Virus record (IMG/VR): IMGVR_UViG_3300010151_000130
Span: 1-26,231 of that record
Source: a virus
Length of the DNA stretch: 26,231 nt
Direction: 5' to 3' (one strand)
The notes below the pieces were generated by a model. The model searched no databases. It saw only the letters and a list, made by a program, of their open reading frames with translations, and had not been told where the DNA came from. Positions 760 through 26,231 of the stretch are shown one piece after another. The translations under genes were made by a program, and so were the position numbers. Each line of letters begins with the position of its first letter. Position 1 is the stretch's first letter.

Positions 760-1500
760 ATGTTTAAGTCGGTTGCATATCTTTTAGCAACTTTGTTATG
801 TTTGTCTGGTTGTGTTTCGAGTTTACCTGCAACACCAGTCCAACCTCAAAAAATAAAACCTGCTCCTCCAGTAACTCATACTTATCTGGATACTTTTCTA
901 TTTGATCCTTATCCTTATGTGGGTTCGGTGAGGTATGAGGAAAATGGGATGTTAATTGGGGGCGGGGTTCTCGTTGCACCAAGAGTGGTAATCACTGCTG
1001 CACATGTCACCGAAGGACATGATGATATAATTTATATTGAACATGATGGTGATGAGTATTGTATAGAAGAGGTAATATATTATCCAACATATACTCCTGA
1101 TCTATTGGTACATGATATTGCAATAATCATCCTTGAAGTGGCTTCGGATGAAGTCCCAGTGAGTCTCTTTGATCCCAATAAAGATATAACTTACAAGAGA
1201 ATGAATTTAACCACAGTCGGATTTGGGACAGGAAGAAAACGATTCAGCAATTACGATATGTTTTGGTATTATGGTAGATTGATTGGAAGACCAGAATTTA
1301 TGATAATGTTACCCACAGAAGCAAGTATTTGGTTCGGTGATTCTGGTGGTGCGGTTCTCACACCAAACAGAAAATTGATAGGTGTTATGTCATATTTTAT
1401 GCTAACAAAAAAAGGAAAGATTTTTGAGAACGGATGCGCAAGCATTGAGTACTATAGAGATTGGTTATTAGAAATAATGAAAGAAAGGATAATCGAGTGA
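760..1500 (+). CDS. Trypsin-like serine protease, predicted lipoprotein
   Basis: This is a 246-residue protein. Residues 1-18 form a short signal peptide ending in the lipobox LSGC, so C18 would be lipidated and the enzyme anchored facing the periplasm. A proline-rich linker (23-38) leads to a chymotrypsin-fold domain with an intact triad: H82 in ITAAH, D119 in HDIA and S195 in GDSGGA. Two further cysteines (C101, C226) could form a disulfide. The residue six before the catalytic serine is S189, which in the family points away from trypsin-like Lys/Arg specificity; that is inference. The ribosome site is poor (only AGTGG before the ATG). The gene overlaps the next by GTGA, so the two are probably translated together. 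A periplasmic protease is unusual cargo for a phage; roles in lysis, superinfection exclusion or host surface change are all possible. Confidence 0.85.
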   Translation: MFKSVAYLLATLLCLSGCVSSLPATPVQPQKIKPAPPVTHTYLDTFLFDPYPYVGSVRYEENGMLIGGGVLVAPRVVITAAHVTEGHDDIIYIEHDGDEYCIEEVIYYPTYTPDLLVHDIAIIILEVASDEVPVSLFDPNKDITYKRMNLTTVGFGTGRKRFSNYDMFWYYGRLIGRPEFMIMLPTEASIWFGDSGGAVLTPNRKLIGVMSYFMLTKKGKIFENGCASIEYYRDWLLEIMKERIIE

Positions 1501-5313: not shown

Positions 5314-8300
5314 TTAATATGCTTCTCCCCCCAGAGTGGGGCCAACTGCTGTATCATAATGACCTATTTTTAGTTTATCAGTATCTTTTGTTTTTCTTTT
5401 TTCTGTTCTTGCTGTCTGTTGTAAAGCCACTTGTTGTACGCGGTTCTTTAGTTGATTATAATAATACCTTTCACCTGCCTTATAGCCGAGGGGATCATCT
5501 GCTTTTTCCGAATGGTCAATATCTTCATCTTCTTTGGGTGCTGGATCTTTCCGGTCTGTTGCGGGTGGACGGGGAGTTTGTGGTTTTACTCGATCTAGTC
5601 TTGGCAGTGGAACTGGCGTGATGTCGGTTGAAGTGTCGGTTGAAGTGTCTTGCCTAGGCGTTACTCTTGGTTCAAGTTTTGTGTCTGGGCCTACTGGGTC
5701 TGGCGTTGGGTCTGGCGATGGGTCTTGCAGTGGGAAATAAGGTATATATGGTATAGGTCTGGGCACAGGTGCAGGTTGTGGTGTAGGTGTAGGTCTGGGC
5801 ACAGGTGCAGGTTGTGGTGTAGGTGTAGGTCTGGGCACAGGTGCAGGTTGTGGTGTAGGTGTAGGTATGGGCACAGGTGCAGGTGCAGGTTGTGGTGTAG
5901 GTGTAGGTCTGTGTGGACTTGGTTGTGTGCCAGGTCTACTTGGCCTTGGCCTTGTTGATGGTCTGACAGAACTTGTGCCCTTTGGAGCGTATCCGTTTGA
6001 GGAAATCCTTTTTACATTACGACTTGTATCCAAACCGGTATCAAAACGCCTGGTCCCCTTCGCAAATCTCGAACCAGATTGCACAATACGAGCAGGAGCA
6101 CCGAATACAGGTGCAAGAGTTAATGCTGTCATTCCAATTGCAACCGGGTCTCCAGACGCAATCGGATCCCACAATTGTGCTTTGGCTTCTTTTCCAATTG
6201 CTGGTGCCAAAATGCTAGGATTCCATGCACTAGTGGGTTCATCTTGCGTATTTGCTACATTTTTTAAAGCGGCACCAATTCTTCTTTTATGTTCTTCTGA
6301 ACCTCGCTTCGCGGAAGGAAGAGGAATATCAATCCCTGGTCGAAGAGGAAGTCCTTTATCTAATCTTCGTTGAGCGAGGGCATCAATCTTAGAAGAATCT
6401 GAAGTGTTGACTCGTTGCAGTCGGACACGGTGATCATTAATCTCTTTTAAAAAATTTTTGTCAAGATCCACAGATTCATCATAACGACTGCTATGACTTG
6501 GTCCACCTCCATTTGATCTTGATCTATATCTGCTTCGTGCCTGATTTAACTCATCAGATTTTGTGGCTTGCTCGGCAGCCTTCGCCTTATCACGCCTCGT
6601 TTGAAGTTTGATGTGATTGATGACTTCGTCAGCCTTCGCGGCAGATATCTCATCACGCTTCGCTTGAAGTGCCGCCTTGCCATCGTCAGTATACTTCTCT
6701 TTCCTGATTGTCTTCTTCCATTCTGTATTTTCTGCGTCGGTGTATCCGGCGTCTGGATCCGCAGCGTCAGGTCGCGTCATGCCCATAGTCTTAGCCTCCC
6801 AATCCGCTTGACTTCTCTTACCCACAGGCAAATTCGCCATAAACTCTTTGGCAACCCTGGTTGCTCTTGCTTGGTTACGCAAACTCGGAGTCGTTGCCAC
6901 CGGTCCTGCGCGACGGTTCAGCCGATTCGCCAGCGGACGTACTGGATCATCCCTTTTTTTCTCTCTGTATTCTCGTTTCTGGTCATCAGTGACCTTTGGA
7001 GATGCTTCCCAAGCCGCCCGGACCACAGAGTCATCTACGGGTCTATTGGCGTGAGCGATGCCTGCCAGCACTTCCGTCGAAGTCGTTTTGCCCCGTATAT
7101 AGTCATTATACGCCTGCGATTTACCGGCAGTTTGTTTATCAACCCCTGCTTGTATAGAAGGACTCGATGCAATAGCATCCCGGCGTGCTGCTGCTCTTTC
7201 TTCGGGCGTTTGTGCTGCACGTTTTTTATCTATCCTATCCATAATTTCTTGACCCGTTTCACCTGTCTTTGAATGTATTGGTATACCCCTACTGTTAACG
7301 AATTGCCCCGCGCTGTTCATTTGTCGTTGTGATGGTTTGGGTGTAGGTGCTGTTGCTGCTGTCGTAGGAGCAGGTGCTGTTCCTGATACACTGCTCGGCT
7401 CGTCACTGTGGCGTGTTCTGGAGCCCCCACGCCAAAGATTAACCAACGCCGCCTGGTTCGCAAGCGAATCCATTTTCGTTACTGGAGTTGATTTAACTTT
7501 ACCACTAGAAGTTATTGTAGCATCCTGTCCCGGTGGAACAGGAATTATTCCAGCAGACACTTGTGCTTCGGTTCCTACATGAAGAGGGAGTCGTTGTGAT
7601 GGTTTGGGTGTAGGTGCTGTTGCTGCTGGCGTAGGAGCAGGTGCTGTTGCTGCTGGCGTAGGAGCAGGTCTGTGTGGACTTGGTTGTGTGCCAGGTCTAC
7701 TTGGCCTTGGCCTTGTTGATGGCGTAGGAGCAGGTGGTTGTCGCATCACAGTCCCGTCAACATTCATTATTGTTGGAGGTTTGACTTTATCTAGAGCAGC
7801 CATAGCAGCCTCCCTCTCTTCTGGAGAAGTCGTTCTGTGTTTTGATGTGTCAATTGGACCATATGCGGTCATGGTTTTTCTTGTTTTTTCCGCTTCTGTC
7901 TCTGGTGGGTGCCATGCTTGCTGATGCCCCCTGTTATAAACGACATCTGTTCCTGTGGTTTTAGTTCCCCCCAGCAACCAAGGAAGAGTCATCTTTCTAG
8001 TCATTTTATCCCAATCAAATATTGGTGTTGGTGCTTTAGATAGCACACTTGAAGAACCTGCATCCCCCACCATAGAAGAGACGACATTACCTGTTGGTTC
8101 TGGTGGATCCTCTGGACCTCCAGCGAGTGGAGCCTCTACTGGATCCCACCCACCATACTTGGCTTTTACACCAGTAACATTACCGTGCTTATCTCTTCGA
8201 ATCCTTGTACCGGGACCTACTTTGATTTTTCTACCAGTTCTTGTGGATGTTAATTCTGTAGAAGGTTGATTCCAAAACTGGGCGGTATACTCATTTAGTT

Positions 8301-8577
8301 CTTGATTCATGGGTGCCCGTGGTGCCCGTTCGTTCAAATGGTTTTTAATTTCTTCTAAGCGTTCCTGTAGACAAAATGTTGATTCTACCACCAATTTAGC
8401 AGTTTTCTTAAATATATTCGAAACTCTGTTTCCGTGGTCAGACTCATCTAAAGATTCCATAACAACCTCAATCCTATTAGTTGTTATATTAGTGAGTTCC
8501 GTTACCAAATAACGAAAAACATCATTTTTGATGATGATGTCACCCTCTTGAAGATTTTTAACCGATTTAAAATTCAT
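5314..8577 (-). CDS. Large proline-rich, low-complexity protein (1087 aa)
   Basis: The first ~85 residues are folded: a small beta-rich unit (LQEGDIIIKNDVFRYLVTEL, with an LQE site at 9-11) and a helix. Residues 100-270 are polar. Residues 280-420 carry proline/alanine-rich stretches (PTPAATAP repeats). Residues 430-700 are strongly charged and helical, rich in K, R, E and A. Residues ~757-773 (SEEHKRRIGAALKN) resemble a NUMOD3-like DNA-binding motif. A mildly hydrophobic stretch lies at 803-835. Residues 870-945 are proline repeats of the type RPTPTPQPAPVP, and an acidic/polar tail follows. The same STRPRPSRPGTQPSPHRP segment occurs twice (287-304 and 874-891). The middle of the gene is GC-rich compared with its neighbours. 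It has a TGGAG ribosome site. It is probably an extended virion or scaffolding protein; no family is recognised for the whole. Confidence 0.8.
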   Translation of the reverse strand: MNFKSVKNLQEGDIIIKNDVFRYLVTELTNITTNRIEVVMESLDESDHGNRVSNIFKKTAKLVVESTFCLQERLEEIKNHLNERAPRAPMNQELNEYTAQFWNQPSTELTSTRTGRKIKVGPGTRIRRDKHGNVTGVKAKYGGWDPVEAPLAGGPEDPPEPTGNVVSSMVGDAGSSSVLSKAPTPIFDWDKMTRKMTLPWLLGGTKTTGTDVVYNRGHQQAWHPPETEAEKTRKTMTAYGPIDTSKHRTTSPEEREAAMAALDKVKPPTIMNVDGTVMRQPPAPTPSTRPRPSRPGTQPSPHRPAPTPAATAPAPTPAATAPTPKPSQRLPLHVGTEAQVSAGIIPVPPGQDATITSSGKVKSTPVTKMDSLANQAALVNLWRGGSRTRHSDEPSSVSGTAPAPTTAATAPTPKPSQRQMNSAGQFVNSRGIPIHSKTGETGQEIMDRIDKKRAAQTPEERAAARRDAIASSPSIQAGVDKQTAGKSQAYNDYIRGKTTSTEVLAGIAHANRPVDDSVVRAAWEASPKVTDDQKREYREKKRDDPVRPLANRLNRRAGPVATTPSLRNQARATRVAKEFMANLPVGKRSQADWEAKTMGMTRPDAADPDAGYTDAENTEWKKTIRKEKYTDDGKAALQAKRDEISAAKADEVINHIKLQTRRDKAKAAEQATKSDELNQARSRYRSRSNGGGPSHSSRYDESVDLDKNFLKEINDHRVRLQRVNTSDSSKIDALAQRRLDKGLPLRPGIDIPLPSAKRGSEEHKRRIGAALKNVANTQDEPTSAWNPSILAPAIGKEAKAQLWDPIASGDPVAIGMTALTLAPVFGAPARIVQSGSRFAKGTRRFDTGLDTSRNVKRISSNGYAPKGTSSVRPSTRPRPSRPGTQPSPHRPTPTPQPAPAPVPIPTPTPQPAPVPRPTPTPQPAPVPRPTPTPQPAPVPRPIPYIPYFPLQDPSPDPTPDPVGPDTKLEPRVTPRQDTSTDTSTDITPVPLPRLDRVKPQTPRPPATDRKDPAPKEDEDIDHSEKADDPLGYKAGERYYYNQLKNRVQQVALQQTARTEKRKTKDTDKLKIGHYDTAVGPTLGGEAY
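5755..5904. repeat. Tandem 36-bp repeat encoding proline-rich units
   Basis: Three identical 36-bp units (5755-5790, 5791-5826, 5827-5862) are followed by a 42-bp variant (5863-5904) carrying one extra hexamer. Read leftward each encodes a 12-residue proline-rich unit (PTPTPQPAPVPR). Identity at the DNA level, including silent positions, points to recent slippage or unequal exchange, so copy number may vary between relatives. Confidence 0.9.
5905..5961. repeat. 57-bp dispersed repeat, copy 1
   Basis: This is identical over 57 bp to 7666-7722, 1.76 kb away in the same gene and orientation. It encodes the shared RPRPSRPGTQPSPHRP segment. Flanking sequences differ. The direct repeat could mediate deletion of the intervening part of the gene by recombination. 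Confidence 0.85.
7324..7381. repeat. 58-bp dispersed repeat, copy 1
   Basis: This matches 7591-7648 with one mismatch. Both copies encode PAATAPTPKPSQR-type sequence in the proline/alanine-rich part of the 1087-residue protein. With the 57-bp pair it shows that this gene has grown by internal duplication. Confidence 0.8.
7591..7648. repeat. 58-bp dispersed repeat, copy 2
   Basis: Second copy of the 7324-7381 block, same orientation, 267 bp away, one base different. It runs almost directly into the second 57-bp repeat (7666-7722), making a mosaic of reused proline-rich modules. Confidence 0.8.
7666..7722. repeat. 57-bp dispersed repeat, copy 2
   Basis: Identical to 5905-5961. It lies in the N-terminal proline/alanine-rich section of the 1087-residue protein, while copy 1 lies in the C-terminal one. 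Confidence 0.85.
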
Positions 8578-9250: not shown

Positions 9251-11174
9251 TATTTTTACCTATTATTTTTGCAAATGGTGTATCTTTCAATAATCTTTTA
9301 AGTAATTCCTCAGTTCCAATTTCTCCAGCACCATACTCTTCATCAACAATAGGATCATATGAATCTTTAATTGCTCTATTTTTAGATGCATTCATAACTT
9401 GTAAATTAGACGAATTATTATTTTGCGGATTTCCGTCTTTATGGTGAACATCATTTCCATCACCCTTAGAAACCCTTCCTTTTTTTTCTAATTTTCTTCT
9501 GGCCAATACTCTATTAGTTCTGTTTGCTATCTGTTTTGGTTTTCCATGATATTCTCTATATTCTTTTTTGTAGTCTCTTTCCTCCTTTACTTCCGAAACG
9601 TGAACTTCGTCTGCTTTTGGATATTCTGGTCCCTCAATATAACCTTGACCATTTTCGGGTTTGTTAGAAACTGGAATTTTAAACTCTTTACCATTAACAG
9701 TAATAAAATTATATGCAACTTTTGGTTGTTCTTGTTTAACCAGGTGTAGTTTAACATTATATTCAAAGGAAAATTCATTTTCGCATATTAGTGCTATTAT
9801 TTCTGGTAAATTTTGTTCTATGAATTTCATAACATCAATTCGTTCATAGTTTCCCATTTGTTCTAATAAGCCATAATCTGTTAAAACAGAAGAAAGTTGA
9901 TGTAGATGTGGGATTGCAGATAATTTACCATCAAGTAAATATTTCAAGTTTGAAATATTTTTCTCTTTGTTTGTATTGGGTTTAAATTGAATCTTCAATT
10001 CAAATGCATCACTCTTAATGAGATTGTCGCAATATTCTAAATTTATAAAATTCGTAGTATGTGGTGTTAATACAATATCAGATGATGCCAATGGACCAAA
10101 TTTATGATTAATATCATAGGTATATTTTCCACTTAAGAGTTCATATAGCAAATGTGTCTTAAATTTGTCACTCTTTAAAGTTTTATACATGGTTGAACTG
10201 ATATTTTCTTTAATCTTCTTGAAGTTTATTTCTGGTTTATTAAAATTATTAATAAATTTTCTATAAACTTTGACCAGTTGGTTTTGATCCATTTTCAAAT
10301 AATTTGATATTGTGGTGATAATGGAGTTAGAAGTATTATTATCTTTTATATTAGACGAATTCAAATTACCTTCGAGGTTGATAGTAATACCCAACACAGC
10401 ATCATTTTCAGTAAATTCATTCAAATAATCTGTTTGGTCTGGATATAATAAAAGTTCACTTTTTGCATCTCTGAAATCGCCCATTCCCATTTCCGACCAA
10501 CTAGCAATACCAGCCAATCTTTGAGGTGTCCACCCTTCTTGATCAATCAATCTTCGTATAATATTTTTACAACTCTCGTAAATTTCTGGAGAAACTTGAG
10601 TTAGTTGTGGAGCAGCATCAACCCTCGACTGAATATCATCTTGACTGAATCCAGCAACTTGTATTGCTATGAGGGTTATAGCGTGTGCATAATGCACATT
10701 ATCACTAACTTCTTTAGGAATTTCCCCGACAACATTTGCTCTTTTTAGTGCATTGATGTCTCTTGGAGAAAGAGTTGCTCTAACTTCTTCTCGCCCTATA
10801 GTATCCAAGGAACGGGGAATACCATCTATGAAGTAATTCTGCTCATATTCCATTTGAGCAATTTCTTCTGGAGTGAATTGTGCTTCTTCTGGTTGTTGAG
10901 GATCATCTCCACCATCTTTAGAATTTGGAGGTGCTGGGGGATTTTCAGATCTTTCTACTCGTTTTCTGGCAGAATCACGATCTTTTTTGTTGTCTATACC
11001 TGTACCTTTTGACATCTCTGAATCCATTTTACTGGCTTTTGAAGATTTATCTTCAGATACAAATATATGAAAAGTGGAAAGGTTTTCTAAAATAAAAGGG
11101 TTTTTATTATATTCTTTGGAGAATTTAACAAATTCTGCCTCATTGAACCATATTGGATGTGTTTTTTCTTCCAT
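9225..11174 (-). CDS. 649-aa protein with C-terminal HNH motif
   Basis: The first ~45 residues form a small folded start. Residues 46-110 are polar with many K, E and P. Residues 110-270 are helical (EEIAQMEYEQNYF, LDTIGREEVRATLSPRDINA). The middle (270-510) is mixed alpha/beta, with LLYELLSGKYTYD and GPLASSDIVLTPHTTNF. Residues ~550-605 carry an HNH-type site: NRTNRVLARRKLEKKG, DVHHKDGNP (H577-H578) and NNNSSNLQVMNASKNRA. A VHHKDGN...NL pattern is typical of phage HNH nucleases that lack zinc knuckles. A nuclease motif fused to such a long unrelated body is unusual. Possible explanations are a homing-type insertion domain or a structural protein with nuclease activity. It has an AAAAAGG ribosome site and overlaps both neighbours (35 and 26 bp). 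The body is not recognised. Confidence 0.75.
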   Translation of the reverse strand: MEEKTHPIWFNEAEFVKFSKEYNKNPFILENLSTFHIFVSEDKSSKASKMDSEMSKGTGIDNKKDRDSARKRVERSENPPAPPNSKDGGDDPQQPEEAQFTPEEIAQMEYEQNYFIDGIPRSLDTIGREEVRATLSPRDINALKRANVVGEIPKEVSDNVHYAHAITLIAIQVAGFSQDDIQSRVDAAPQLTQVSPEIYESCKNIIRRLIDQEGWTPQRLAGIASWSEMGMGDFRDAKSELLLYPDQTDYLNEFTENDAVLGITINLEGNLNSSNIKDNNTSNSIITTISNYLKMDQNQLVKVYRKFINNFNKPEINFKKIKENISSTMYKTLKSDKFKTHLLYELLSGKYTYDINHKFGPLASSDIVLTPHTTNFINLEYCDNLIKSDAFELKIQFKPNTNKEKNISNLKYLLDGKLSAIPHLHQLSSVLTDYGLLEQMGNYERIDVMKFIEQNLPEIIALICENEFSFEYNVKLHLVKQEQPKVAYNFITVNGKEFKIPVSNKPENGQGYIEGPEYPKADEVHVSEVKEERDYKKEYREYHGKPKQIANRTNRVLARRKLEKKGRVSKGDGNDVHHKDGNPQNNNSSNLQVMNASKNRAIKDSYDPIVDEEYGAGEIGTEELLKRLLKDTPFAKIIGKNNARHNRRS

Positions 11175-11718
11175 GCAATAAACCTTTTTGGACTTCTTTA
11201 AATAACTGTTTAGAGTCAGATATATGTATATTTTTTGGCAAACCTATACAGAAATCCTGAAAATTATTGCTTTTAGCGAACTGTCTCATTTGTTTAGAAG
11301 ATATTCCTTCTATTGAAGTATTTTCAATTTTACTTCTGTCAACTGAGACGATTTTAAGAGAATCAATATCAAATTCAGATCCAACATAATGAAGCAATTT
11401 CTTTTCAAAAATCCTTTTTCTGTCAGATCCCACAACCATGATTAAATTCTTATATCCATCATTACTCAAATCTTTAATTACATCAAATATGCTTATTATG
11501 CTGTTTGATTTCTCTATTTTGACCCCCAAAATAATTTCAATGAACTTTACCTTTTCATCATAGGGGAGTGGATTTATTTTATTATCTTCTTTTTGTGAAG
11601 TATATACCCTATATGAACAACCCAAATGATTTGAAATTCTTTTCATTTCATTTATGATCTCTACATGACCTTTTGTTGGAGGGTTAAATCTACCAAAAGT
11701 AAAAACTACATCGTTCAT
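11140..11718 (-). CDS. HIGH-type nucleotidyltransferase (adenylyl/cytidylyltransferase fold)
   Basis: This 192-residue protein shows both signatures of the cytidylyltransferase superfamily: FGRFNPPTKGH at residues 8-18 (the T/HxGH nucleotide-binding motif) and ISSKQMR at 139-145 (the ISSxxxR phosphate-binding motif), with VVGSDR at 95-100 between. These enzymes join a nucleotide to a phosphate-bearing substrate; relatives include NMN adenylyltransferase (NAD synthesis), pantetheine-phosphate adenylyltransferase and glycerol-phosphate cytidylyltransferase. T4-like phages often carry NAD-related members, so an NMN-type role is plausible, but the substrate cannot be read from sequence. It overlaps the adhesin gene by ATGA and the next gene by 35 bp, so it is tightly co-translated. 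No other NAD gene is in view. Confidence 0.85.
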   Translation of the reverse strand: MNDVVFTFGRFNPPTKGHVEIINEMKRISNHLGCSYRVYTSQKEDNKINPLPYDEKVKFIEIILGVKIEKSNSIISIFDVIKDLSNDGYKNLIMVVGSDRKRIFEKKLLHYVGSEFDIDSLKIVSVDRSKIENTSIEGISSKQMRQFAKSNNFQDFCIGLPKNIHISDSKQLFKEVQKGLLHGRKNTSNMVQ

Positions 11719-14700
11719 TGTATATGAATTCTTCTTGCTAATTTAATGTTGAAACTGCTTTTGTCATTTGACAATGCTTTACTTGACACTAACGAGACAA
11801 ACCCAAACTCATTTGTTTTTCCAAATTGCTGTGAAAAGATATAGTTGGTATTGTCAATTTTAGTATCCATAACAGTAGAGGTTATATAAACACCGTCCAT
11901 ATTTAACTCAACATTAGTATCTTTGGTTATTCTAGCAACAAATGCCAATTCGTCTTGACTCATTATATACCAATCATCATAACCATACAAGAAAGATTTT
12001 CTAATGTGGTTTGTCAACTTCGACCCAAGACCATAAAAGTCAACACCATCACCATAGATGTTATAATGTCCATTATACGGAGAAGTCTTATTGCTTCCAC
12101 TTGCTGTTATTAACTGCTTTTCGTCCACCTGCAAATCAGATGGATATAGAACTAGTGCCCATTTATTATTAGAACTTTCGTTAAATGATCCTCTTGCTCT
12201 ATAGTTTGATGCGGTCCCACTTTGTATGTTTCCGAAAACTTCAGAATTATTAATTCCCCCAGTCTCGAAAATACCAACATAAATTCCATTTTGGTAATAG
12301 TCACCAGGGCTCATAGAACTGAAAGTGGAAGCATTTTCAAATTTAGATGAATTATTAAAGTTTACGGCAGAAGAACTTGAGGGTTTTTCTGGCGGCAGAG
12401 GGCATGGGGCTTCCGAACACATTATTGGTAATGAGTCTTCTGGGATACTCCAAATGCCACCCCTTTCTTCGCACCATTCCCTCTCAACTGAATCGGAGCA
12501 AGAATACGCTGTTGATTCTGAATTTAAGAAACAGCAAGAACTAATTAAAATTTCGTTCATAATATCAGGAACTACAGATGCTGGTAACCCAGACAAATCT
12601 CTAGATTTGGTTTTATTTAGTTTCAGACCATCATTTGATACTATAGTTGATACTGGACATGAAACGGCATCACATGACCTACCAGACCAAAACATTTGAT
12701 ATCTTTCTTCGCAATTTGAAGAAACTGTCATGATACAATCACCATTTATTTTGTTACAACATGCACCAACAATTTCAGCACGAGACCCCGAACCGCAATT
12801 TGATGATTGGCAAGACGTACCATATCCCATCCAACCACTTTCACATTGGAACTTTTCTGAGATGTTGTTACAGCAATTTCCCATTTTACAATTGTAATTG
12901 CAACACGCACCAGCACCACAATTTATACCTTCGCATAATATTCTATTATTGGGATCATGTCCATGCCAATTCGCATCTGTGCTTCGACTATAACAATCAC
13001 GTTCTGTTGTGTTTATACACTTAACATTAGAATCAGAGGAATAACAACATGCTGCCTTTTCATTGCCAGTTTCATTGCCATAAAACCCCGTAGTATTACA
13101 AGGAGAAGGAGATGATTCACATAATTGGTTTTTATTGAAAACTCCGCCATGCACATCCTCACACTCTGTTTGAGACATTAGCATACAATTCAACATACCA
13201 CCATCAGCAAGAATTGAATCTATTATTGAGTCTAATTGTTCTATATTAAGAGCAGCATGATAAGAACCACCAGTTCGATTGGCCAGTTCCTTCAATCTTA
13301 CTTCTGCCACTGATCCCTCTTCAACACCAAAACCTATTGTTATATAAGTCGTCTGTGGATCATTATCGTCCATCCATTGAATATAATCATCAGAGTTTGG
13401 TGCGCCGTCTGAGAAGAATATAGCAATGCTTTTAGTACCGCCGGTGTGATATGCGTCGTCTATATCATAAGAATGGTGCAATTGGATAGGATTTAAGTAA
13501 TCAGTATTATACCAAAGAGGAAGATATTCATCATTAATCCACGGTGGTAATAAATTCCACCAAGCGTGCAATACTGGTTCGTACTTGTCGTTAATTACTC
13601 CAGACCACAGATCAACAGAAAAGTATATTCCCCGGTCAGGATCAATGACTTGTATCATCTTATTAATTAATTTTTCACTCCATCGTATTATATCATCAGC
13701 ATTGCTGCCTATACTTAAACTTTTGTCAAGTGAAAGTGATATTAAACCTAAATTCTGCTCAAGTTCCAGACAACATGCACCATAACACCCACCCTCACCA
13801 TCCATTCCTGGGCATGCCGCCTGACCACCATCTGCACATGGAGTGTCACATCCGTGCCAACAAACAGTATCTGGATCATGCACACCATCAAGCATCCATG
13901 ACATACATTGGCCCATGGTTAATTGCACACAATCCCAAACATCCGAGCCATCGAACAGGCCACAACATGCTCCAACACATCCTTGTCCTAACTCACATAT
14001 AATTTCATCACACTTCTTTCCAATCGTACCATAATAATCTACTCCGGGAAACACTGAAGATTCTCTTTGATAACACTCAGTTATAGTACAAACATCTTCG
14101 CACAATTCTGCACCAAGATCACTCATATAGCAACATGCATATTTTTCTCTTATGTCTATAGTTTCTCCTTGTGGAGTTTCTTTAGAACAAGAAATGTCAG
14201 GATCCTCAACAGAAGAGCAATCACCATCTATCCATATTCCATCATTCCTTTCACATTCACATTCTGTTACCATTTTTAGGCCATCTGCTGAGATTCTTTC
14301 AGTTTCACATACACTCAAATCAGAACATAATATTTCAGAATACCATGTTCCATCACAATCTTCACTCTTAATTCTATCCGAACAAGTATTATTCTCGCAA
14401 CATGCACCAAGCAAATCACAAACCCCATCACCAGAACAATTTGTCCCCACTCCCAGGAAAGATCCCCGCAAAGTAGCACATTCCGATGAAGTTTTGAGAC
14501 TGCATACTCCATCAACGCAACAAGCACCATTGAAACTAGAACCACAGGGAGTATCAGTACATATACTATAATTGCCCAAGTACTCTCCCTGATAATAATT
14601 CAAACATTCTTCTTCTGTTATATCAGATATACACTTATTGAATGAACAGCACGCTCCTTTTGGAGAACATGGTTTATTATCGCATGATGTGTTTTGCCCT

Positions 14701-16328
14701 AACCATATTCCTTCTAGTGATTCACATTGATATTTTGTTGCAGAAACACAACCACTACTTGGGGTACAACATGACCCGATTAAATCACCAGGAGAAAAGA
14801 GATATAATTTCCCGTTTGTTAATAATGACGTATCTTTTAATATTGGCTGTCCTATAAGGAGATAATTAGTATCATCTTTTACGTCGCTCCCACCCTGAGA
14901 AGATGAAATAGTTCCTGCATAATGTGTTTTATTACCTATGCTCCCTAAACTATCACCAACAATTTCTTGTACCGGGAACATAGTATCTTCCCAGTTAGTT
15001 TGTGTTTTATAAACATAAACAGATTGTTCTATATCAGATATGAAGATATAATCATGAATAAACGAAACAGAATACCCAGAATCAACATTAAATTCTTGTT
15101 GTGCTATCTCTGTATAATTTGCGGGTGTATATAATTTAGACTTCAAATTCCATTTCATTCCATCTCGCTGAAAAACCAACCCAATAATTGTGTTATTTTT
15201 TATTCGTATTCTAGATTTCAATAAACAAACCATTGTGTGGGTTGTTTCATTAACATGAAGTTCTAGTATATCAGAATTTATGTTATAATTTCTGATATCA
15301 ATATACGAATCTATAATCCAGTCATCGTAAACTTTCTTATAAAAGTTTATTGTACCAGATTCAGCCATAATAAATGTGTCATCATAAAACCAAAATGCTG
15401 AATTGGATAACATTTTATTATTTTCGCTAGAAAATGTAGTAGAATGTTGCCAGTTGTTGTTGGAATCCTTTTCATATAAGTAAAAACTACCAACAGGTTC
15501 ATTATAAACATCCTTTAATGGTTTATTATATCCAGTATATTTGGAACCTATTATTAATTTTGTATCGCTAAACATCCTAACATTCTGACCAAATCCCCCG
15601 CACAAATTGTCTGAACACTTCAATGATGTTTCTGGTGAAGTTATGGTTTGTGTGATAGACCAAGAACCATCTTTTTCGTATATGAATACTTTTCCATCAT
15701 CAGAACAAACACCACCATTACAACCATTTATTTTATACGATTTTGGAAATCCAATAGCAAGAGTATCACCAAAGACATCAAGATCTGCACCAAATGATCT
15801 GTTGCAGAAATTTGAAGCATCATGAGAACTAGCACTATCAATTGCTGTTGGGGCTGACCAAGTTTTCAAATCTGAATTATAATCAGAAACCATAACCTTA
15901 GTCGGTTTGGTTGCTTTTATATAATCTGATTCATTCGAACATCCATCATCAGAATCCCTGGCAGAAAAAATAGAACTAACATTTCCATCAGAATCAACAA
16001 CTAATTTAACTTTAGTTCCATAATACGCCCCAGTTGTGGCTCCCGCTATAGAACTTTCATCATTCCAGATATATGTGTTTGCCCCACTTTCTCTAAAATC
16101 CCAAACTTGTTCGCTTGAATATACGCAAGAACAACAACACCCCAAAGAAGACTGTTGGGGGCATTCTGTGTCGTTTATAAAAAACAATCCTGAAGCATTC
16201 AAACAATCGTAATAAGTAGTTTCTTCTTTTGTACCATCGGGAAAACAGCAATATCCCTGAGTAGTATTACCACCCAGCGGATTTGCAGAATATATATTCT
16301 TATTTTTAAAGTGGTACTGAGAAGACAT
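11715..16328 (-). CDS. Giant cysteine-rich adhesin with vWA domain (1537 aa)
   Basis: Residues 20-70 carry a first cysteine cluster (GYCCF, LGCCCSC). Residues ~80-515 look like a beta-propeller: DVFGDTLAIGFPKS, MFSDTKLIIGS and YLLIGQPIL repeat with blades ending in V(F/Y)IYEKD. Residues 516-855 are repeated cysteine modules of about 40 residues, consensus GACC(x5-6)C(x6-8)C(x5)G(x5)G(x5)C(x4)C. A von Willebrand A-type domain lies at ~856-1045, with MIDAS DxSxS at D868-S872 and FFSDGAPNSDD at 971-981. More cysteine modules run from 1046 to 1310. After a serine linker, the C-terminal 200 residues contain DDWYIMSQDELAF (1451-1463), like the W-x-P-S-x-x-EL core of DUF1566/Lcl adhesin domains. No signal peptide is visible. 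All parts are binding modules, so a tail-fibre or surface adhesin is likely. So many cysteines are odd for a protein assembled in the cytoplasm. Confidence 0.8.
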   Translation of the reverse strand: MSSQYHFKNKNIYSANPLGGNTTQGYCCFPDGTKEETTYYDCLNASGLFFINDTECPQQSSLGCCCSCVYSSEQVWDFRESGANTYIWNDESSIAGATTGAYYGTKVKLVVDSDGNVSSIFSARDSDDGCSNESDYIKATKPTKVMVSDYNSDLKTWSAPTAIDSASSHDASNFCNRSFGADLDVFGDTLAIGFPKSYKINGCNGGVCSDDGKVFIYEKDGSWSITQTITSPETSLKCSDNLCGGFGQNVRMFSDTKLIIGSKYTGYNKPLKDVYNEPVGSFYLYEKDSNNNWQHSTTFSSENNKMLSNSAFWFYDDTFIMAESGTINFYKKVYDDWIIDSYIDIRNYNINSDILELHVNETTHTMVCLLKSRIRIKNNTIIGLVFQRDGMKWNLKSKLYTPANYTEIAQQEFNVDSGYSVSFIHDYIFISDIEQSVYVYKTQTNWEDTMFPVQEIVGDSLGSIGNKTHYAGTISSSQGGSDVKDDTNYLLIGQPILKDTSLLTNGKLYLFSPGDLIGSCCTPSSGCVSATKYQCESLEGIWLGQNTSCDNKPCSPKGACCSFNKCISDITEEECLNYYQGEYLGNYSICTDTPCGSSFNGACCVDGVCSLKTSSECATLRGSFLGVGTNCSGDGVCDLLGACCENNTCSDRIKSEDCDGTWYSEILCSDLSVCETERISADGLKMVTECECERNDGIWIDGDCSSVEDPDISCSKETPQGETIDIREKYACCYMSDLGAELCEDVCTITECYQRESSVFPGVDYYGTIGKKCDEIICELGQGCVGACCGLFDGSDVWDCVQLTMGQCMSWMLDGVHDPDTVCWHGCDTPCADGGQAACPGMDGEGGCYGACCLELEQNLGLISLSLDKSLSIGSNADDIIRWSEKLINKMIQVIDPDRGIYFSVDLWSGVINDKYEPVLHAWWNLLPPWINDEYLPLWYNTDYLNPIQLHHSYDIDDAYHTGGTKSIAIFFSDGAPNSDDYIQWMDDNDPQTTYITIGFGVEEGSVAEVRLKELANRTGGSYHAALNIEQLDSIIDSILADGGMLNCMLMSQTECEDVHGGVFNKNQLCESSPSPCNTTGFYGNETGNEKAACCYSSDSNVKCINTTERDCYSRSTDANWHGHDPNNRILCEGINCGAGACCNYNCKMGNCCNNISEKFQCESGWMGYGTSCQSSNCGSGSRAEIVGACCNKINGDCIMTVSSNCEERYQMFWSGRSCDAVSCPVSTIVSNDGLKLNKTKSRDLSGLPASVVPDIMNEILISSCCFLNSESTAYSCSDSVEREWCEERGGIWSIPEDSLPIMCSEAPCPLPPEKPSSSSAVNFNNSSKFENASTFSSMSPGDYYQNGIYVGIFETGGINNSEVFGNIQSGTASNYRARGSFNESSNNKWALVLYPSDLQVDEKQLITASGSNKTSPYNGHYNIYGDGVDFYGLGSKLTNHIRKSFLYGYDDWYIMSQDELAFVARITKDTNVELNMDGVYITSTVMDTKIDNTNYIFSQQFGKTNEFGFVSLVSSKALSNDKSSFNIKLARRIHIQ

Positions 16329-16335
16329 TCAAAAC

Positions 16336-16443
16336 TCAGTCTTTATTCCATGGAAGAAATCCCTTAGTCCATTTCCACAGAGGAATGCCAACAACTGTTC
16401 CTGCAATAAACATCAAAACCGACCACCAAATTGTACCTAACAT
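16336..16443 (-). CDS. Small single-pass membrane protein (35 aa)
   Basis: A frame too short for usual gene calling starts at ATG 16443, with AAAGGA six bases upstream, and ends at TGA 16336-16338, seven bases before the adhesin ATG. The product begins MLGTIWWSVLMFIAGTVVG and ends with the basic, aromatic WKWTKGFLPWNKD. That is one hydrophobic helix with a cationic tail, probably in the inner membrane. It fills most of the otherwise empty gap 16329-16483. The adhesin has no clear ribosome site, so coupled translation from this small gene is likely. A holin or tail-assembly role cannot be judged. Confidence 0.65.
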   Translation of the reverse strand: MLGTIWWSVLMFIAGTVVGIPLWKWTKGFLPWNKD

Positions 16444-16483
16444 ATCTTATCCTTTCAGTTTAATATAATGAAAACCTTTATAT

Positions 16484-17641
16484 TTAGTCAGTTTTATTTC
16501 CCCATGCGATGAAATTGTTCCGACTAAATTCCAATCTGTCTATCAATTTTATTATCTTATTTTTACCATCTACAACAACCAATCCCTCTGGTTGTGTTTC
16601 TTTGAGATTACCATCTATATCAAAAAAAGTATTAATATCATCTGTGTTATTTATTCTACTAATGAAGATATTTTTAATTTTTAATAATTTTCTCCGAATT
16701 TTAAAAAAAATCCTAATTTCAGCATCGTGGTCGTTTATGAAATCAAACAAAACCTTTCGTTTGTCGTCTCTTAATCTTTTACCCCGAATCGTTTTTAGTT
16801 TTAATTTTTCATCTTCTATTTTATCAGACAACCACTTCAGAAATGAATCTAAACTATCCTCTTTAATGTTATTCTTGACGTTGTGATTAAAATATTTATT
16901 TAAATATGACGTTAGGTAATTTTGGTCTTCAAGTTCATCGAGGAATGGTTCTAAACCAACGTTTTTAATCAATTTCATTTCAGAAGAAATTAAATTCTTT
17001 TCTCCATTTGTCAACAGAGAAATGTTTGTGTATGATGAATCAATAGCCCAAATATTTTTATTTTTCGCAAAGTTAGATATATCTGGACCATATTCTGGTC
17101 TCAGTTTAGAAATTTTCCTTCCAGAATATTTCGTATGAAAAACAATACCAAATTTAGAAGAATTGATTTTTTTACCCAATTTGCTGGAATTAACAACACT
17201 ATATGTTATAGTATTGGGTTTAAAGGTCAAATGCTTCTGATGGTTAATGGATCTCTTTCTGACCAGAGAAGGCCAAAATAACAAATCTCCCTGATAGATA
17301 CCATCTATTCCTAATTTAGAAAGTTCAACCAACAATGACGAAAGCAAATAAGATAAATTCTTATTATTTTTATAATTTTTCTTAATATCAGACAATGTGT
17401 AATTAAGAATTGGTATTTTATTAAATACACCCTTTGTGCCAATAAAGAATTTCCTATTTTCTGGATTTATTCCACACACAATACTAGGAGACCCGTCCCA
17501 TTTCAAAGAAGTTTTTATCTTTTTTGTTGGCGTTCCTGAAAATATCTTCTGCAATTCAGAAAAAAAGGAAAAGATTTCACCCATTCCTCTTTTTCCATGT
17601 AACATTAGATCTTCTGCATGTAAAATGGTAGTATTTTTCAT
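16484..17641 (-). CDS. Ligase-like KxDG nucleotidyltransferase
   Basis: The start is the ATG at 17641 (GGAGG eight bases upstream), not a TTG five codons earlier; it overlaps the exonuclease stop as ATGA. The 385-residue protein has the motif order of the DNA/RNA ligase and capping-enzyme superfamily: LKWDGSP with the nucleotide-accepting lysine K47, FFIGTKG at 65-71, YQGDLLFW at 116-123, EGLVVVDG at 352-359, and a final basic motif KIIKLID with K362/K365. It matches, from memory, a family of uncharacterised proteins in T4-like marine phages (KWDG.P.I.CG.NPE...FF.GTKGVF), listed I believe as DUF6267. No OB-fold is obvious. It could be a DNA or RNA ligase, or a nucleotidylating enzyme that modifies something else. 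The exonuclease upstream suggests end-processing. Confidence 0.8.
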   Translation of the reverse strand: MKNTTILHAEDLMLHGKRGMGEIFSFFSELQKIFSGTPTKKIKTSLKWDGSPSIVCGINPENRKFFIGTKGVFNKIPILNYTLSDIKKNYKNNKNLSYLLSSLLVELSKLGIDGIYQGDLLFWPSLVRKRSINHQKHLTFKPNTITYSVVNSSKLGKKINSSKFGIVFHTKYSGRKISKLRPEYGPDISNFAKNKNIWAIDSSYTNISLLTNGEKNLISSEMKLIKNVGLEPFLDELEDQNYLTSYLNKYFNHNVKNNIKEDSLDSFLKWLSDKIEDEKLKLKTIRGKRLRDDKRKVLFDFINDHDAEIRIFFKIRRKLLKIKNIFISRINNTDDINTFFDIDGNLKETQPEGLVVVDGKNKIIKLIDRLEFSRNNFIAWGNKTD

Positions 17642-18282
17642 ATATGTCCCCTCCAATATTCCTCAATAGTACCCTTAAGGGCTTTAACATAATTTTGGGG
17701 TTCTTTGATAAATTCTTGGACAATTCCTTCTTCGGAACTTATTAAAATCACAATCTGTTCTATAGGAATCCCAGTTCGTTCCTGCCACATTATAGCATAA
17801 GCAGTGGCTTGGAGAAAATAATTCTCTATTTCTGACTCTTTTTTGGGATTTGTGCTTCCCTTAAAGTCAATAATAGATAATTTTCCTTTATAATTAGCAA
17901 CACAGTCAACTCTGCCTGCAAGTTTCAATAGACTGCTCCAAAGAGGAACTTCTAAAGCATGAATAATATCAATATGATTGACTAAATAATCTTTTATCTG
18001 AAAGAATAGATCTTTAATATTCTCTTTATTTTCTAAAAAATTATCTTTTTCTAGAAGAAATTGCTCTATTGCTTCATGGAGATCATTTCCCCTCTTCAAA
18101 ACTCGTCTAGATTCTCTTGGGTTATTCTTTCTCCATTGTTTAAAGAATTGAGATTTTTTCCAACCCGTTACAGTAGTAACCGATGGGTATTTTCCCTCTG
18201 GAGAAATATAATACCTGCTATTATTTTCCATAATAGCAGGTATTTCGATTATATTATAATCATTTTTATGAATAAATGTCAT
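17638..18282 (-). CDS. PD-(D/E)xK exonuclease (RecB/MGME1-like)
   Basis: This 214-residue protein has the full set of RecB-family nuclease motifs: RGNDLHE (H69-E70), E111 in HALEVPLW, D126 in AGRVDCV, the catalytic IIDFKGS (D139, K141) and QATAY (Q158, Y162). The N-terminal RYYISPEGKYPSVTTVTG is characteristic of phage and mitochondrial MGME1-like exonucleases that trim single-stranded DNA ends. The ATG at 18282 has no ribosome site and lies about seven bases after a sigma70-like -10, so the message may be leaderless. An alternative ATG at codon 18 sits in the loop of a perfect hairpin. The first residues (FIHKNDYN) resemble other family members, which favours 18282. The stop overlaps the ligase-like gene (ATGA). 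Confidence 0.88.
   Translation of the reverse strand: MTFIHKNDYNIIEIPAIMENNSRYYISPEGKYPSVTTVTGWKKSQFFKQWRKNNPRESRRVLKRGNDLHEAIEQFLLEKDNFLENKENIKDLFFQIKDYLVNHIDIIHALEVPLWSSLLKLAGRVDCVANYKGKLSIIDFKGSTNPKKESEIENYFLQATAYAIMWQERTGIPIEQIVILISSEEGIVQEFIKEPQNYVKALKGTIEEYWRGHI
18210..18244 (-). other. Perfect 14-bp inverted repeat in the 5' coding region
   Basis: Arms 18210-18223 and 18231-18244 are perfect complements around a seven-base loop. In the leftward message this forms a strong hairpin covering codons ~14-25 of the exonuclease gene, with the in-frame ATG of codon 18 at the loop edge. No T tract follows on either strand, so it is not an intrinsic terminator. It could control translation, bind a protein, or be chance. 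Confidence 0.75.
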
Positions 18283-25335: not shown

Positions 25336-26231
25336 TTACCCAATGTTGGTCCGTGAGTCCCTTAATGGATGCTCTAATGCCGCCCGGACCACAGAGGGAT
25401 CTTTGTGTCTTGCCGCACGCACCACAGCCCCAGAATTCGCCGCTGGATGCTTCAATGCCGCATGGACCACAGAGGGATCTTCGTGTTGTGCCGCCCTCTC
25501 CACAGCATAAGAACTCACCTCTGGATGCTTCAATGCCGCATGGACCACAGAGGCATCTTCGTGTCCTGCCGCCCACATCACAGCCTCAGAACTCACCTTT
25601 GAATGCTTCAATGCCGCATGGACCACAGAGGGATCTTCGTGTCTTGCCGCACGCGCCACAGCATCAGAATTCACCTTTGAATGCCCCAATGCCGCATGGA
25701 CCACAGAGGCATCTTTGTGTTGTGCCGCATGCTCCACAGCATCAGAATCCGCCTTTGAATGCCCCAATGCCGCATGGGCCACAGAGGCATCTTTGCGTTT
25801 TGCCGCCATCATCACAGCATAAGAACTCACCTTTGGATGCTTCAATGCTGCATGGGCCACAGAGGCATCTTTGTGTCCTGCCGCCCTCTCCACAGCCCCA
25901 GAATTCGCCAATGAATGCCCCAATGCCGCATGGGCCACAGAGGGATCTTCGTGTTTTGCCGCACGCGCCACAGCATCAGAATTCACCTTTGAATGCCCCA
26001 ATGCCGCATGGACCACAGAGGCATCTTTGTGTTGTGCCGCATGCGCCACAGTATGAGAACTCACCTCTGAATGCTTCAATGCCGCATGGGCCACAGAGGG
26101 ATCTTTGTGTCCTGCCGCATAATACACAGCCCCAGAACTCACCTTTGAATGCTTCAATGCCGCCCGGGCCACAGAGGGATCTTCGTGGTTTGCCGCATGC
26201 GTCACAGCATTAGAATTCACCTTTGAATGCC
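25336..26231 (-). CDS. 26-residue helical-repeat protein, 5' end outside window (partial)
   Basis: The frame is open from the window edge (codons readable from 26229) to TAA at 25336. It consists almost wholly of 26-residue repeats: ten complete and one partial unit after an incomplete first one. The consensus is H(K/E)D(P/A)SV(A/V)xAALxH(S/P)xxxSxAVxxAAx. The pattern is like variant leucine-rich (LRV) repeats, two short helices per unit, which stack into a curved protein-binding surface. The most variable residues are the pair after AV (YY, AH, AR, ER, MM, MW, VR), probably on one face. DNA units are nearly identical 78-mers. It ends abruptly in HPLRDSRTNIG without a capping domain. Related repeats occur in the 240- and 407-residue proteins. 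The leader is not visible, so packaging cannot be judged. Confidence 0.8.
   Translation of the reverse strand, partial: HSKVNSNAVTHAANHEDPSVARAALKHSKVSSGAVYYAAGHKDPSVAHAALKHSEVSSHTVAHAAQHKDASVVHAALGHSKVNSDAVARAAKHEDPSVAHAALGHSLANSGAVERAAGHKDASVAHAALKHPKVSSYAVMMAAKRKDASVAHAALGHSKADSDAVEHAAQHKDASVVHAALGHSKVNSDAVARAARHEDPSVVHAALKHSKVSSEAVMWAAGHEDASVVHAALKHPEVSSYAVERAAQHEDPSVVHAALKHPAANSGAVVRAARHKDPSVVRAALEHPLRDSRTNIG
25360..26231. repeat. 78-bp tandem repeat array
   Basis: About eleven 78-bp units in direct array fill the gene. Units at 25644-25732 and 25956-26044 are identical over 89 bp and lie exactly four units (312 bp) apart, which suggests segmental duplication within the array. Base differences cluster in a few codons per unit. 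The array also leaves other frames open on both strands, which should not be read as genes. Confidence 0.9.

Follow-up and report, generated by a model that had tools for sequence, protein, structure and literature searches.

What kind of phage protein is built largely of repeated cysteine modules, and how would such a protein come to use its cysteines if it is made in the cytoplasm of the host? The question is raised by the window analysed here (the whole 26,231 bp of an IMG/VR record), which holds a single intact open reading frame of 1537 codons plus stop, termed P0001 (Table 1). P0001 has 92 cysteines, i.e., 6.0% of its residues versus a mean of 0.5% in the other window proteins (n = 24 examined); their count is even in most segments and zero in the vWA and C-terminal domains. 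Full-length and C-terminal queries gave no significant match in PDB, Pfam, PHROGs or NCBIfam, the module block queried alone reached a best match at chance level (E = 6), and tblastn of 50,697 deposited phage records detected no relative. DNA repeats inside the gene were discarded as a separate feature, as they just reflect the GACC codons, and matches to T4-type late promoters were no more than chance. An earlier note, made from the letters of the DNA alone, had proposed a binding fibre assembled from transferred extracellular modules; its observation is confirmed, and its interpretation holds only in part. On balance, we consider it probable that P0001, encoded by an uncultured T4-superfamily phage, is an adhesin of the virion that is assembled late, stabilised by disulfides and probably metal-dependent, and that it derives from a short form by expansion and relocation.

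Table 1. Features of P0001 and its flanking genes, with positions in the window
Feature	Residues	Position	Strand	Basis
Cytidylyltransferase-like gene		11140..11718	-	PF01467 3e-7, phrog_3041 1e-44; overlaps P0001 by 4 bp
P0001, predicted modular Cys-rich adhesin, 1537 aa	1-1537	11715..16328	-	ORF with stop; homologous gene ends in L001/L031 and L032
SSCC module and Lcl_C/DUF1566-like C-terminal domain	1255-1537	11718..12566	-	Profile links
Extra GACC modules	1092-1224	12657..13055	-	L032 lacks them at the same point
GACC module interrupted by nested vWA	850-1077	13098..13781	-	Module and MIDAS alignment
vWA domain, Cys-free	861-1045	13194..13748	-	MIDAS D868/S870/S872, T942 (probable), D974
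Cys-rich GACC-type module; approximate start of insertion 2	786-835	13824..13973	-	Sequence; also in L032
TECEC/ACC module, putative ancestral middle	686-775	14004..14273	-	Common to short family
Four tandem GACC modules	518-674	14307..14777	-	Independent module profile
FG-GAP-type beta-propeller (moderate confidence), insertion 1	76-515	14784..16103	-	Blade profile, Foldseek; model pLDDT 45
Cys module, predicted N-terminal anchor	1-75	16104..16328	-	gp13-adjacent family profile
DUF6267 gene, T4-like cyanophage family		16484..17656	-	PF19782 1e-85

Domain architecture of P0001

The GACC module spans approximately 36 residues with six cysteines (GACCxxxxC-x7-C-x13-C-x4-C). A profile derived from 95 modules on virus contigs other than the window matches P0001 at E = 5e-14 and none of 50 shuffles and the reversed sequence (0/51), confirming the repeated modules claimed on both sides of the vWA domain; likewise, [GAS][AS]CC tetrads number 10, versus a mean of 0.2 and a maximum of 4 in 5000 residue shuffles. 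A DNA-pattern scan found the GACC pattern in at least 120 contigs, most matches being genuine modules within proteins of phages, and collagen-like GXY N-termini being present in many of these proteins; a first pattern geometry was dropped, as it caught mainly out-of-frame or low-complexity DNA. A distinct GACC family is formed by small virus ORFs of 70-290 aa (e.g., L058, L064, L070, L072), which start with MPC, often end in NPLP and apparently belong to other phages.

The propeller assignment is of moderate confidence: the blades of another phage protein (L061) match residues 76-515 at E = 7e-5, no control (200 shuffles, the reversed sequence and the rest of P0001) scoring better than E = 0.03, and a Foldseek search with a low-confidence model retrieved mostly beta-propellers, in agreement with the propeller-like N-terminus first suspected. 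The FG-GAP profile PF14312 reaches 13.1 bits, under its cut-off of 23. At the other end, the Lcl_C/DUF1566-like domain proper (residues 1335-1537) lacks cysteine, and P0001 itself has no match to Pfam PF07603. The assignment is transitive: the P0001 C-terminus aligns in hhalign with a family of fibre ends, A4 (E = 4.5e-7, probability 92.6), of which 6/9 members match Pfam Lcl_C (best 2e-5, those displayed falling under the curated cut-off), and the WY-x-x-S-x-DEL motif is common to P0001 and PF07603, which points to the DUF1566-like end that had been proposed. As both AlphaFold2 models are poor (pLDDT 41 and 45), our fold claims lean on sequence motifs and on similarity to fold classes taken as a whole.

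Beyond the flanking modules noted earlier, the vWA domain itself sits within a GACC module, between its second and third cysteines, with the GACC itself at residues 850-853 and the remaining four cysteines at 1048-1077. The plan is identical in L032, and two further phage lineages, L150 and L119/L145, have the nesting in unrelated protein regions; an HMM scan across 1398 virus ORFs yielded four proteins that combine GACC modules with a vWA domain, and each of them displays it. The MIDAS residues are clear, save for a threonine that is probable by alignment. For P0001 there is no Pfam VWA match at E ≤ 1, let alone one above the curated cut-off; sequence comparison does pick up its L032 homologue (E = 6e-14), and the relative L119 clears the cut-off (PF00092, 9.5e-13). 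The closest PDB folds to residues 9-208 of the model (approximately 858-1057 of P0001; low confidence) are integrin I and vWF A domains, with Z up to 11.8. Together, the residues, the homologue and the nearest folds uphold a vWA domain with a DxSxS MIDAS. L001 appears to lack the second MIDAS aspartate, having ITRGR in place of FLSDG, and metal binding may therefore not be universal.

Homology to a short protein encoded beside gene 13

A single short phage protein of 431-636 aa, found at 77 IMG/VR loci, aligns collinearly with three segments of P0001 (residues 23-73, 686-775 and 1255-1513). The profile of this family matches residues 23-73 with an i-E of 1.5e-15, stretches within residues 21-100 show 38-54% identity, and the N-terminal cysteine motif reads GYCCFPDGT...CCCSC. 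With composition correction off, the middle segment scores 29.0 bits, whereas none of 200 shuffles exceeds 16.3; with the HMMER correction on, it has no match. From this collinearity, P0001 is the short protein enlarged by two insertions, the first comprising the propeller and four GACC modules and the second GACC modules and the vWA domain.

At 71/71 testable loci, namely those with enough downstream sequence, the short protein is encoded ahead of the neck gene, T4 gene 13, at a distance of 0.5-0.8 kb, judged by gp13 within 1.5 kb downstream. Clustering at 80% identity divides the 77 short forms into 48 groups, and the adjacency is therefore not one clone counted repeatedly. In G018 the short form is followed by gp13, gp14, gp15, gp17, gp18, gp19, gp20, gp21 and gp23, in this order. 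Across the loci, the gene ahead of the short form usually encodes a cysteine-rich, fibre-like protein, often with collagen-like repeats. At L375 and L373/L396, this upstream gene is a giant fibre-like ORF, the extreme being 346 Cys in 2659 aa. The analysis reveals a conserved cysteine-rich virion gene cluster without a tblastn match among the 50,697 phage records. GACC modules are also found in proteins with the T4 baseplate-wedge domain (phrog_219; L062:5816-8116, E 1e-160, and L071:3212-5599), and the Gp23-bearing record G010 encodes proteins of 1512 and 1378 aa, with 158 and 123 Cys, next to baseplate-wedge genes.

The fibre role first suggested for P0001 draws its support from this gp13-adjacent family; as the window gene is not itself beside gp13, its virion role rests on homology. 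The same position is occupied by wac in T4, which would fit a fibritin-like protein of the neck whiskers or collar, serving to guide the assembly of fibres or to sense conditions, with no binding to the host. We regard this as unlikely: neither P0001 nor the short homologue matches any PHROGs family, including those of the known T4 fibres (wac, gp12), P0001 itself is located elsewhere, and domains of a binding type are what its propeller, its vWA domain and its Lcl_C-like end represent.

Probable relocation of the gene

P0001 lies between the DUF6267 gene, which has matches in 457 phage records, and the cytidylyltransferase gene. These two adjoin in G010, and both halves of the pair fall in a single PHROGs family (phrog_455); thus, the adhesin gene splits genes that neighbour each other elsewhere. 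P0001 would appear to be a relocated version of the short gp13-adjacent protein. The Gp23 major capsid protein is absent from the 26-kb fragment and occurs in 4/20 related records; the DUF6267 and HNH genes are common to the window and Gp23-bearing G010.

Relocation away from the virion genes, together with the indirect route by which P0001 is placed in the virion, would also suit a soluble adhesin released at lysis and acting off the particle as a decoy, superinfection blocker or biofilm binder. This strikes us as quite improbable, since the N-terminal anchor and the C-terminal domain are common to a family whose genes keep a constant place among virion genes.

Cysteine chemistry and cellular relatives of the modules

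All six cysteines are kept in 722/772 GACC modules. Those without Cys2 also lack Cys6 (5/5), and those without Cys4, which are four related sequences, also lack Cys1 (4/4); such paired loss fits the expectation from disulfides, and the pairs may tentatively be Cys1-Cys4, Cys2-Cys6 and Cys3-Cys5. As 35 modules lack Cys6 alone, we treat this pairing as hypothetical. A hydrophobic N-terminus is present in 68/85 full-length bacterial GACC proteins versus 5/101 viral ones, and P0001 has neither this nor an export signal, which gives substance to the earlier concern that its cysteines face a reducing cytoplasm. Because the cytoplasm is normally reducing and P0001 lacks an export signal, we infer that its disulfides form at or after lysis. 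No thioredoxin-family gene was found in 21 records, all of them possibly fragments, and no description of GACC phage proteins was found in the literature searched.

Among the genome matches listed for the module, 64/80 have Planctomycetota titles, mostly of Phycisphaerae, which makes good the planctomycete lead. The Phycisphaerae proteins have the same six-cysteine module and mostly a hydrophobic, export-type N-terminus, which the phage versions lack. A recent transfer of the modules from hosts is not established by these matches: GACC modules already have a wide distribution among phages and belong to a conserved phage locus. No homologue of the short form was found in 397 Phycisphaerae genomes (a search without positive control), and as one Phycisphaerae genome carries a distant Gp23, we claim no host link. 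The concentration of modules in this class is a lead, not proof, to host or habitat.

A very high cysteine content could also mark a metal-binding protein active in the cytoplasm in its reduced state; the pairwise cysteine loss, the six-cysteine modules, the export-signal-like N-termini of most bacterial relatives and the adhesive companion domains all speak against this, and we hold it to be very improbable.

Integrity of the contig and other genes of the window

The 3' portion of the P0001 gene, coding for its C-terminal part, recurs at 51-53% identity in two independent contigs (L001/L031 and L032), followed in the same order by genes for nucleotidyltransferase, HNH, membrane and Pro-rich proteins, then by several small genes and finally by RuvC-like and trypsin-like genes. 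As this gene end and its neighbours are found in both, the locus is not a misassembly. The phage origin is supported, and the shared synteny rules out the misassembled host fragment that had been named as a possible refutation. A chimeric assembly with a host fragment in a phage contig, to which the GACC modules of Phycisphaerae might point, can be practically dismissed in view of the same gene end with ~10 syntenic genes in two other contigs, the one open frame and the 4-bp overlap with the next gene.

A search with the 649-aa neighbour protein matched only at its HNH end. Elsewhere in the window, positions 760-1500 (+) encode a trypsin-like serine protease (PF00089, 4e-14). Its N-terminus is of the lipoprotein type (LLCLSGC); the protein is conserved at ~35% in L032 and L178 and is apparently a secreted phage protease. 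A low-complexity Pro-rich protein of 1087 aa (5314-8577, -) aligns over only its first ~83 aa with the versions of 743 and 810 aa in L001 and L032. A 78-bp tandem repeat in 11 copies (25336-26231, -) encodes a 26-aa repeat (HKDPSVVHAALKHSKVSSDAV...), the opposite strand being likewise open, and a 35-aa membrane-peptide ORF (16337-16444, -; MLGTIWWSVLMF...) stops just ahead of the P0001 start codon.

Proposed mode of action

From the computed architecture, the homology to the gp13-adjacent family, the nesting and the absence of a signal, we posit that P0001 is present in the virion, carries disulfides and binds its target in a metal-dependent manner. The N-terminal cysteine module would anchor the protein, the GACC modules would act as rigid six-cysteine spacers, and the propeller and the MIDAS-bearing vWA domain would be outward-facing binding heads, the latter held in a loop between Cys2 and Cys3 of its module, with the Lcl_C-like domain closing the chain. 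P0001 would be synthesised without an export signal in the reducing cytoplasm, its disulfides probably forming only at or after lysis.

More speculatively, and with considerable doubt on our part, a large uncultured T4-like lineage may assemble the fibres of its neck and baseplate out of a kit of oxidation-dependent domains shared with exported Phycisphaerae proteins. Such fibres would be made reduced and become rigid and binding-competent only once lysis exposes them to oxidising water, and the vWA domain would be pinned within a disulfide module in such a way that oxidation gates its display. This raises a testable question: is the folding of fibres in some phages completed only outside the cell?

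Comparison with known systems

The short homologue resembles gp12 and wac, the neck-adjacent short-fibre and whisker genes of T4, in its place: it lies directly upstream of gp13 and is followed by neck, terminase, sheath, tube and portal genes. Unlike gp12 and wac, it has cysteine modules in place of T4-type sequence, and P0001, at 1537 aa, is relocated. The vWA fold, with a MIDAS as in P0001, is also that of integrin I domains and of the minor pilin PilB of Streptococcus sanguinis (Z ~11.3-11.8); in contrast to these, the P0001 domain is nested in a six-cysteine module of a virus protein without a signal peptide.

A disulfide network has been described in the virion of the myophage Milano of Agrobacterium, including its neck and collar, and its authors note that other myophages do not have so many cysteines (PMC10491603). 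The Milano bonds (PMC10491603) are between subunits of ordinary structural proteins, whereas P0001 is a predicted cysteine-repeat adhesin. The contractile-tail fibres of eCIS are reported to have beta-propellers accompanied by collagen shafts and TNFR-like domains, and also to have VWA domains (PMC12923769); these are injection systems of cellular genomes, whereas P0001 belongs to a T4-like phage, has GACC modules and carries its vWA domain nested in one of them. P0001 suggests that contractile-tailed phages, too, use integrin-like domains in their fibres.
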